DNA of 33,449 nt, from positions 1 to 33,449 of the forward strand of contig PCAK01000035.1 in the NCBI GenBank assembly GCA_002730525.1. The letters are read 5' to 3'. This stretch comes from Acidobacteriota bacterium (GTDB lineage: Bacteria > Acidobacteriota > Vicinamibacteria > Vicinamibacterales > UBA823). Position numbers and translations under genes: made by a program. Each line of letters starts with the position of its first letter. Position 1 is the stretch's first letter. Below are positions 24,743-27,772 of this stretch, piece by piece. The notes beneath the pieces are model-generated. The model saw only the letters and a list, made by a program, of their open reading frames with translations. It had not been told where the DNA came from and searched no databases.

Positions 24743-25216
24743 ATGCCGACACGGACCAACAGTGGACACGTTCGGGTACACGGGAGCTTGCTGGCGGCCG
24801 CGGAGAAGCGGGCGCTGGTCTGGATGGCGGAGCGGATGCCGGGATGGGTGAACTCCGACCATCTCACGTTGCTGGGACTCGGCGCGATGCTTGCGGCCGG
24901 CCTGCCGTTCTGGGCGGCCAGTGCCAACCCGCTGGCGCTCTGGGCCGTCGTCGCGGCGCTCGCCGTCAACTGGTTCGGTGACAGCCTCGACGGTACGCTC
25001 GCGCGGGTGCGCGATCAGCAGCGGCCGATGTACGGCTACTACGTCGATCACGTCATCGACATTGTCGGCGCGTTCTTCTTGCTCGGCGCCTGGCGCTGTC
25101 GACGAGGACCTGGCGCATCGACGACGCGGCGAGCGCTCGGAAGTGCGCTTCGTTCTCCCAGCAGAGGCGTGAGTCCTTCAGGAGCCGCAGGTAGGCTTCG
25201 TGAACGAGCGCGGTAG
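24743..25216 (+). CDS. 3'-truncated CDP-alcohol phosphatidyltransferase
   Basis: The first 115-118 residues are a normal start of a CDP-alcohol phosphatidyltransferase: a basic amphipathic N-terminus, membrane segments (about residues 42-58 and 64-78), and the complete catalytic motif D80-x2-D83-G-x2-A-R88-x9-G98-x3-D102-x3-D106. In intact enzymes this motif binds the metal and CDP-alcohol and makes phospholipid head-group bonds. After IVGAFFLLGAW the frame enters Arg/Ser-rich sequence antisense to an ECF sigma fragment, and it stops at 25216 after 157 residues. The remaining four or so membrane segments are missing, so the product is probably inactive. The start has AGGAGG six bases upstream. 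Either a genomic deletion/rearrangement or an assembly join near 25090-25105 explains the break. Confidence 0.75.
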   Translation: MPTRTNSGHVRVHGSLLAAAEKRALVWMAERMPGWVNSDHLTLLGLGAMLAAGLPFWAASANPLALWAVVAALAVNWFGDSLDGTLARVRDQQRPMYGYYVDHVIDIVGAFFLLGAWRCRRGPGASTTRRALGSALRSPSRGVSPSGAAGRLRERAR

Positions 25217-25355
25217 CTTGGAGTGAGTGCCCGGGTGCTCGTTCCGCATGTAGCGGCGGGCGACCCGCCGCCGCTCGTCGTAAACGAGCGGCATGAGATC
25301 CGCGACCGCACCGCGGTCGCCGCCGTTCGGTGGGGGCGATGGGTCGTCTGGGCTC
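25098..25355 (-). pseudogene. ECF-type sigma factor fragment, frameshifted and 3'-truncated
   Basis: On the minus strand a GTG at 25355, with GGAGGA eight bases upstream, opens a frame reading LMPLVYDERRRVARRYMRNEHPG. The sequence continues in the next frame as GHSLQATALVHEAYLRLL, then WENEAHFRALAASSMRQVLVD. Joined, these are the sigma-region-2 part of the ECF family common in Acidobacteriota and Planctomycetota. One base is missing in CCCGGG (about 25231-25235): a fourth G restores the family frame. Sigma region 4 is absent because the sequence passes directly into the 3'-truncated CDP-alcohol transferase gene, so no functional sigma factor can be made from it as written. Confidence 0.75.
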
Positions 25356-25453: not shown

Positions 25454-26113
<660 letters not shown>

Positions 26114-26161
26114 CGATGCTCTCCTCCTCGAATTCGCTACAGCTTCCCCGGGGAAACCGCC

Positions 26162-26167
26162 ATTCTA
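26162..26167 (-). promoter_or_regulatory. Candidate -10 element (TAGAAT) of the peroxiredoxin gene
   Basis: On the minus strand TAGAAT lies about 50 bases before the start codon at 26113. No good -35 is seen at 17 bases, as expected for an activator-dependent promoter. Transcription starting about seven bases downstream would put the palindrome centre near -72. Confidence 0.35.
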
Positions 26168-26215
26168 GCGCCGGATCGACCCCGGCACCAGTGGCGCGCT
26201 CCTTCCGAGGGAAGG

Positions 26216-26239
26216 GAAGTGTGAGCTAGCTCACACTTC
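26216..26239. promoter_or_regulatory. 24-bp perfect palindrome matching the CRP consensus
   Basis: A perfect 12+12 palindrome with core TGTGAGCTAGCTCACA, which fits TGTGA-N6-TCACA exactly. Its centre is 114 bases before the peroxiredoxin start. It also lies four bases past the stop codon (26243-26245) of the minus-strand dehydrogenase gene, so as RNA it could form a 10-bp hairpin with loop CTAG; there is no U-tract. An operator is the better reading; a terminator is the alternative. Confidence 0.65.
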
Positions 26240-26242
26240 GGC

Positions 26243-27772
26243 CTATTGGGCGGCGATGAGATTCGTCAGATAGATCGTGTTCGACGAGCGGACCGTCACG
26301 AAGACTCGCCCCTGCTCGTCGACGCCGAAACGTTGGTCGCCTCGGCTGGCCCCGCGCCCCGCGGCGACGTAGTCATCTCCGTGGATGATCCGCGTGAAGA
26401 GGTCCGGCTCGCCGCCGTCGATGCTGGCGTACATGACGTGGAGGGTCGCCTGCGTGTCGTTGGCATCGGCCTCGAGCAACTCCCCGAAGTCGACGTGGAA
26501 GAACGCGCCGCTGGGCAGGTCGGCGAAGACGACCTGATCCTGGAACTTGGGATCGTCCGGGTCGGACGCGACAAAGCCGCCGACGATCGCCGCGCGCGGG
26601 AACGGGCCCGACCCCGGGTAGTACTTGAAGTCATGGTCGTAGATTGTCGCCGGGTACTCGACGGTGAGTGCCGGCGACGGATTCAAGCGCGACGTCCGCT
26701 CCGGGCTCCGGTCGACGTCGACCGGTCCGTCGATCGCCGGCCAGCCGTGGTTGTCGCCGACGTCGACGAGGTTCAGTTCCTCGTAGTCGTCGGCGCCGAT
26801 ATCGAAGACGAGGAGCCTCGAGGTGCCGTCGGGTTCCCGGGCGAAGGTCAGGTTCTCCGGATAGCGGAAGCCGATTGCAGCGATCTCCTCCGCGTTGCCG
26901 TCGTCGTCGAGCAACGGTCCACCATCGGCGAACGGATTGTCCTCTGGAATGGCGTAGCGGTCGTCGCCGTGCTGGAGCGGGTCGATCCGAAGGATCTTGC
27001 CGAACGGGTTGTCCGAGTCCTGGACGTGCTGCCAGTCCCAGAGGCCGCCGCCCGACCAGGTGTCGCCGAGCGGGATGTAGAGCAGGCCGTAGTCGGGGTC
27101 GCCCGGCTCGACGAACGGGTTGAAGGCTATGTGGCCCATCGAGTGGTTGTCCTGGTTCGGCCCGCTGATCTCGAACCGGATAATGTCGCGGTACGATGTC
27201 GGGTCGATCCGGCTCGGGTCGTCGGGGTCGACGGTCCACTCGGCGACGGCGAACCGGCCGATCACCCTACCGGGCTTGGTCGCCAGGTTGGCACCGCTGT
27301 AGTCCGGCTCCCGCGCGCCTGGAATCGTCGAGCGGTAGAGCGTGTAGAGCTTCCCCTCGCCCGGTGCGCCGGCGCGGCCGTAGTCGGGGTGGAAGGCGTA
27401 GTAGGAGAGGCCGCGCGTCACGAAGCGCAGCGTCGGGTCGAAATCGGGTGTCACGCCCGGTGCGGCCAGGTCGTGGAAGACGCCCAGCAGATCGCCCGAG
27501 GAGGAAAAGGCGAACAGCTTCCCCTCGTTCGTGCCGACGAAAAGTCGGCCTGAGCCGTCCTTCGCGTGATCGATGTCGATCGCGTCCGATTCCGGCCCGA
27601 CCTGCGGGTGTGTCGTGTAGGTCGTGAGTTCGAGGACCTTCGGCGAATCGATCGGCTCGGGCGCCTGGGCGAGGGCCGGCGTTGGGGCGAGTCCCACGGC
27701 GATGGCCAGACACGCCAGGGCGCGCCACGAGGGGGTTGGGCCGCGGTCGGCGCCGAGAGTGAGTTTGGTCAT
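26243..27772 (-). CDS. Secreted glucose/sorbosone dehydrogenase-like (GSDH) propeller protein
   Basis: A 509-residue exported protein with a signal peptide (about residues 16-36, ending PTPALAQAPEP). It has the propeller of PQQ-dependent soluble aldose sugar dehydrogenases: AFHPDYGRAG, GHIAFNPF, YGLLYIPLGDTW, NPFGKILRIDP, IGFRYPENLTF, VDVGDNHGWPAIDG and IVGGFV appear in the family's order. The conserved arginine/asparagine run at FRYPENLTF and the HGWP turn sit at the substrate side. In true enzymes PQQ and calcium oxidise aldoses in the periplasm; whether this member binds PQQ cannot be judged by eye, and no PQQ synthesis genes are nearby. It follows the hydrolase gene after 77 bases on the same strand. 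Confidence 0.88.
   Translation of the reverse strand: MTKLTLGADRGPTPSWRALACLAIAVGLAPTPALAQAPEPIDSPKVLELTTYTTHPQVGPESDAIDIDHAKDGSGRLFVGTNEGKLFAFSSSGDLLGVFHDLAAPGVTPDFDPTLRFVTRGLSYYAFHPDYGRAGAPGEGKLYTLYRSTIPGAREPDYSGANLATKPGRVIGRFAVAEWTVDPDDPSRIDPTSYRDIIRFEISGPNQDNHSMGHIAFNPFVEPGDPDYGLLYIPLGDTWSGGGLWDWQHVQDSDNPFGKILRIDPLQHGDDRYAIPEDNPFADGGPLLDDDGNAEEIAAIGFRYPENLTFAREPDGTSRLLVFDIGADDYEELNLVDVGDNHGWPAIDGPVDVDRSPERTSRLNPSPALTVEYPATIYDHDFKYYPGSGPFPRAAIVGGFVASDPDDPKFQDQVVFADLPSGAFFHVDFGELLEADANDTQATLHVMYASIDGGEPDLFTRIIHGDDYVAAGRGASRGDQRFGVDEQGRVFVTVRSSNTIYLTNLIAAQ

Follow-up and report, generated by a model that had tools for sequence, protein, structure and literature searches.

A candidate CRP-type operator upstream of a Prx6-type peroxiredoxin gene in a Vicinamibacterales bacterium

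At E. coli class I CRP-dependent promoters, the activator site is centred at -61.5, -72.5 or further helical turns, and the -35 is weak. In M. smegmatis, Crp (MSMEG_6189) activates ahpC by way of a near-consensus site centred at -81.5 (PMC4218801, PMC12713383). CRP control of a peroxiredoxin is therefore not new, being already known in mycobacteria. M. tuberculosis CRP reads TGTGA-N6-TCACA, and GlxR of Corynebacterium glutamicum reads TGTGANNTANNTCACA (PMC4218801, PMC4254451). DR0997 (DdrI) of Deinococcus radiodurans is a CRP-family protein with a role in oxidative-stress defence exerted via TGTGA-N6-TCACA sites; its targets are catalase activity, repair and protease genes, and no peroxiredoxin is named (PMC4868304). 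A full-text literature search for CRP-family regulation in the class of the genome studied here, probably Vicinamibacteria, found no relevant paper.

The window analysed is a stretch of 33,449 nt from an Acidobacteriota genome (G000). A sequence-only reading had proposed that a palindrome located between two genes of the minus strand is a CRP-type operator of the downstream peroxiredoxin gene. As in the M. smegmatis system, an inverted repeat of the TGTGA-N6-TCACA type lies upstream of a peroxiredoxin promoter, though the activating position is -81.5 there and about -72 here; as in E. coli class I promoters, the putative activator site precedes a promoter whose -35 is weak. DR0997 shares the type of site and differs in its targets. 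The features of the locus are as follows.

26216..26239, no strand assigned: 24-bp perfect palindrome GAAGTGTGAGCTAGCTCACACTTC, from the sequence and a palindrome scan
26220..26235, no strand assigned: candidate CRP-type operator core TGTGAGCTAGCTCACA, an exact match, 14/16 identical at the same place in a same-genus genome (G001)
25454..26113, minus strand: Prx6-type peroxiredoxin gene, proposed target (Pfam AhpC-TSA and 1-cysPrx_C)
26243..27772, minus strand: GSDH-type (glucose/sorbosone dehydrogenase-like) gene, upstream on the same strand (Pfam PF07995)
26161..26172, minus strand: conserved promoter block GGCGCTAGAATG with candidate -10 TAGAAT (26167-26162), 12/12 identical in G001, where the upstream spacer is unalignable
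26120..26129, minus strand: likely ribosome-binding site GGAGGAGAG, read from the sequence, with AGGAGAG kept in G001

The palindrome was found as previously described. It is perfect over 24 bp and contains an exact TGTGA-N6-TCACA with the dyad symmetry of a CRP-type operator; the distance from its centre (26227.5) to the downstream peroxiredoxin ATG (26113) is 114.5 bases, the earlier figure being 114, and it follows the dehydrogenase stop codon (26243-26245, minus strand) after 3 nt. No longer perfect palindrome was detected in the window; another of 18 bp at 26708-26725, inside the dehydrogenase coding region, is probably due to chance. From size and composition, approximately 0.008 perfect 24-bp palindromes are expected per window and approximately 0.8 per genome, so that palindrome length alone is not compelling genome-wide. 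The genome-wide search suggested by the sequence-only reading recovered exact TGTGA-N6-TCACA three times in 3.31 Mb, once in the window, and the reversed control pattern not at all. The two other sites were one inside a coding region (L002/L068), rejected as a further operator on that account, and one after nuoI, next to a TPR/protease gene (L001/L245), rejected as footprint evidence since the whole stretch aligns well with G001, which has TGTGG. When one mismatch was allowed, there was no genome-wide excess over the reversed control (10 vs 12, 15 vs 11), and a large CRP regulon was rejected on this basis. The genome is without an E. coli-like CRP regulon and, unlike the cAMP-dependent global regulator GlxR, there is no sign here of a large set of targets. 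In both species the sequence CGTGAAGTATTTCACA was observed roughly 400 bases before dnaA, within a stretch that is conserved (L070 in G001:C2, L075 in G000:C10).

The expected number of palindromes, the one-mismatch counts and the exact site in coding DNA are what would be anticipated of a chance match without function. This explanation is nonetheless very improbable, since G001 has selectively kept the core at the same place in the promoter amid scrambled DNA, and since the motif co-occurs with a regulator, both described below.

The peroxiredoxin gene encodes a 219 aa protein. Its earlier designation as a 1-Cys peroxiredoxin is correct as to family, Prx6-type with the '1-cysPrx_C' domain, but the protein has four cysteines (45, 64, 119 and 166), which makes '1-Cys' no more than the name of the family. 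The candidate -10 TAGAAT is conserved. In agreement with the earlier description of the promoter, the -35 is poor; no sigma-70 consensus pair was found at the peroxiredoxin promoter, and no usable -35 is present in either G000 or G001. With +1 assumed seven bases after the -10, an assumption on which the operator positions depend, the operator centre is at about -72 in G000, as had been proposed, and at about -74 in G001. This corresponds to class I geometry, in which the site is centred close to -61.5, -72.5 or further turns and the -10 is accompanied by a poor -35. Unlike in the E. coli class I promoters, the contact with the alpha-subunit C-terminal domain (alpha-CTD) is here a prediction, and the distance from operator to -10 is not quite constant, the two species differing by 2 bp. 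On the other side of the peroxiredoxin gene, at 24743-25346, a plus-strand fragment of a CDP-alcohol phosphatidyltransferase gene meets a minus-strand ECF sigma-factor fragment around position 25100, and both look truncated. In G001 the gene after the peroxiredoxin is instead an amidohydrolase, which indicates that this stretch is rearranged, inserted or misassembled.

The comparison within the genus covered one further genome, G001, in which the dehydrogenase and peroxiredoxin genes are in the same order, with 93% and 98% identity, respectively. As they are adjacent in both genomes, synteny alone cannot separate an operator from a terminator. Four-fold degenerate sites are 65-73% identical between the two genomes, and the intergenic DNA has drifted much further, including about 22 nt inserted or lost between the dehydrogenase stop and the site. 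The surviving intergenic blocks are TGTGAGCYAGYTCACA (14/16, with 10/10 consensus positions) and GGCGCTAGAATG (12/12). For the 52-54-nt spacer from the operator to TAGAAT, the alignment as far as the conserved block was not superior to that of shuffled sequence (p = 0.56). Identity is 14/16 in the core against 1/8 in its flanks (p = 0.0007). The p-value of the 14/16 core match depends on the background chosen: it is 0.05-0.15 against four-fold sites and 0.002-0.02 against backgrounds of 50-60% identity, which bracket the 58% identity of the gapped spacer. By this footprint from two species, the operator core appears to have been selectively retained within the genus.

The position just past a stop codon had led to the caution that terminator use must be excluded, and the alternative was considered that the dehydrogenase mRNA ends in an RNA hairpin, acting as a terminator or 3'-end stabiliser, and that the CRP match is incidental. 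The palindrome starts 3 nt past the stop and, as gene-strand RNA, would form a 10-bp stem of -14 kcal/mol with z about -5; termination in the absence of a U-tract is believed to occur in some bacteria. In G000, however, no U-tract follows the hairpin and no terminator was called at the site, and an Rfam search of the site gave no match. In G001 the site lies about 29 nt after the stop. Loss of the outer four base pairs leaves a stem there of about 5 bp with z -0.5, while the operator core persists. An intrinsic terminator, namely a GC-rich hairpin followed by a U-tract, was therefore rejected, and with the outer stem lost and the U-tract missing a role for the hairpin is quite unlikely. Retention of the core with loss of the flanks appears to fit a DNA operator better than a terminator stem. 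It is also the reverse of the expectation for a terminator; the pattern named beforehand as evidence against an operator was a palindrome missing before peroxiredoxin orthologs and kept after dehydrogenase orthologs.

Before peroxiredoxin genes of relatives, the site is present in G001 and absent from all loci examined outside the genus (28 in the order and 80 wider). In genomes beyond the genus the dehydrogenase matches are only about 30-38% identical, so that the check for a palindrome kept behind dehydrogenase orthologs covered the genus alone. An 80% identical peroxiredoxin is present on a Vicinamibacterales contig.

G000 and G001 each encode two CRP/FNR-family proteins, here designated CRP-A and CRP-B; lack of any such protein would have counted against an operator. 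CRP-A (G000:C44:156.4-157.1 kb; G001:C3:80.07-80.76 kb) belongs to the CRP/FNR superfamily, with cNMP_binding and HTH_Crp_2 both above the curated cut-offs. Its recognition helix, VGLTRETVN, is CRP/GlxR-like, which agrees with the expectation of a regulator with a helix matching the site; the residue matching CRP Arg185 is not basic. The nearest solved relatives in a PDB search are M. tuberculosis CRP (Rv3676) and C. glutamicum GlxR, with RETVN in common, and M. smegmatis Crp is of this nearest family. The site here also has TA in its centre, as in the GlxR consensus. In this assembly the CRP-A gene has a one-base deletion and frameshift (L034:1180-1240, G000:C44), flanked by differences that are mostly silent-looking; it is intact in G001. 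No site was found before the CRP-A genes, and autoregulation was rejected.

The cyclic-nucleotide pocket of CRP-A reads PRDH, as it does in three orthologs; a fourth ortholog has PQEH, and M. tuberculosis CRP has PRTS. CRP-A thus does not have the pocket Arg followed by Ser/Thr of cAMP-dependent CRP, and it is without one of the contacts to the cAMP phosphate. It scores below the NCBIfam CRP cut-off, and a search for class III cyclase in G000 and G001 found none. From the pocket, the score and the cyclase search, cAMP appears unlikely to be the signal of CRP-A. The M. smegmatis regulator, in contrast, binds cAMP and its ahpC target is also under FurA. In the present case the cAMP contact has changed, the search for a class III cyclase was negative, a Prx6-type enzyme is the putative target and the system is known from sequence alone.

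CRP-A was found in 21 of 193 genomes of the class, and the motif TGTGAGCNNGCTCACA was searched in all 193 with at most one mismatch. Genomes with CRP-A contain 5 times more TGTGAGC-N2-GCTCACA sites, 1.19 per genome against 0.23 in those without (p = 5e-6, a value that ignores relatedness), and the reversed control pattern did not differ between the two groups. The 133 genomes that had not been inspected when the motif was proposed gave 0.81 and 0.22, respectively (p = 0.003, again ignoring relatedness). Outside the genus, 17 of 20 sites in CRP-A genomes were intergenic against 13 of 30 in genomes without CRP-A (p = 0.003), the coding calls being those of a simple GC-bias ORF caller and the latter set a subset of all sites. 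Three genomes with CRP-A orthologs, G020, G010 and G040, have 8, 5 and 6 exact sites, against a mean of 1.8 elsewhere (p = 0.0002); G048 has 6 exact sites and no CRP-A, and about half of the CRP-A genomes have no TGTGAGC-N2-GCTCACA site.

Several sites in G040 and G162 are near genes for AhpC/TSA-redoxins, flavin disulfide reductases or CRP-A itself, and DUF3179 genes are near sites in G020 and G162. Tentatively, CRP-A might represent a cAMP-independent, GlxR-like regulator clade of the class, with TGTGAGC-N2-GCTCACA as its recognition sequence. Its targets would form a small thiol/peroxide/metal-stress regulon of peroxiredoxins, AhpC/TSA-redoxins, flavin disulfide reductases and DUF3179 proteins, to which the Prx6-type peroxiredoxin would have been added in this genus alone. 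A perfect TGTGAGC-N2-GCTCACA was also seen close to where a winged-helix (Trans_reg_C) gene starts in G192 and G042 (L298, L299); these genomes belong to a single genus, and CRP-A is present in just one of them. A second palindrome flavour, (T)TGTGAAA-N2-TTTCACA(A), recurs in the order, including in G040 and G010 (L237, L242, L244); in G010 these palindromes are near alternative complex III-like genes, identified by eye, and a TauE permease. The TGTGAAA-N2-TTTCACA palindromes are probably another CRP/FNR-family regulon.

The palindrome could instead be a repressor site, or an operator read by a different dimeric protein such as CRP-B or an unrelated regulator. CRP-B is a second CRP/FNR-family protein and is intact in G000, where CRP-A is frameshifted, and a perfect site is present in G042, which has no close CRP-A. 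CRP-B, however, has IETCIR in place of the RETV motif of TGTGA readers, the number of motifs tracks CRP-A across genomes, and a position near -72, before the promoter, is more in keeping with activation than with repression; such a reading is rather unlikely.

The palindrome is very probably an operator of some kind, and a CRP-type operator before the peroxiredoxin gene is the best reading, so that the earlier interpretation is supported. It seems likely, from the helix, the promoter geometry and the co-occurrence, that CRP-A reads the site as an activator of this gene. In the proposed mechanism, the palindrome would be bound at about -72, upstream of RNA polymerase, by a dimeric activator of the CRP/FNR family; the most likely one is CRP-A, whose gene lies elsewhere in the genome. 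By class I contact with the alpha-CTD the activator would recruit polymerase to a promoter that has a -10 and no usable -35, and recruitment would switch on the peroxiredoxin gene in response to an inducing signal that is probably not cAMP.

The locus provides a concrete regulator-operator-target hypothesis for a class in which no relevant literature on CRP-family regulation was found. As a case from a group of bacteria that has been little studied, it is sound but fairly ordinary. It suggests that CRP-type control of a peroxiredoxin, known from mycobacteria, extends to a distant lineage, where the signal may be a different one in view of the altered cAMP contact of CRP-A.
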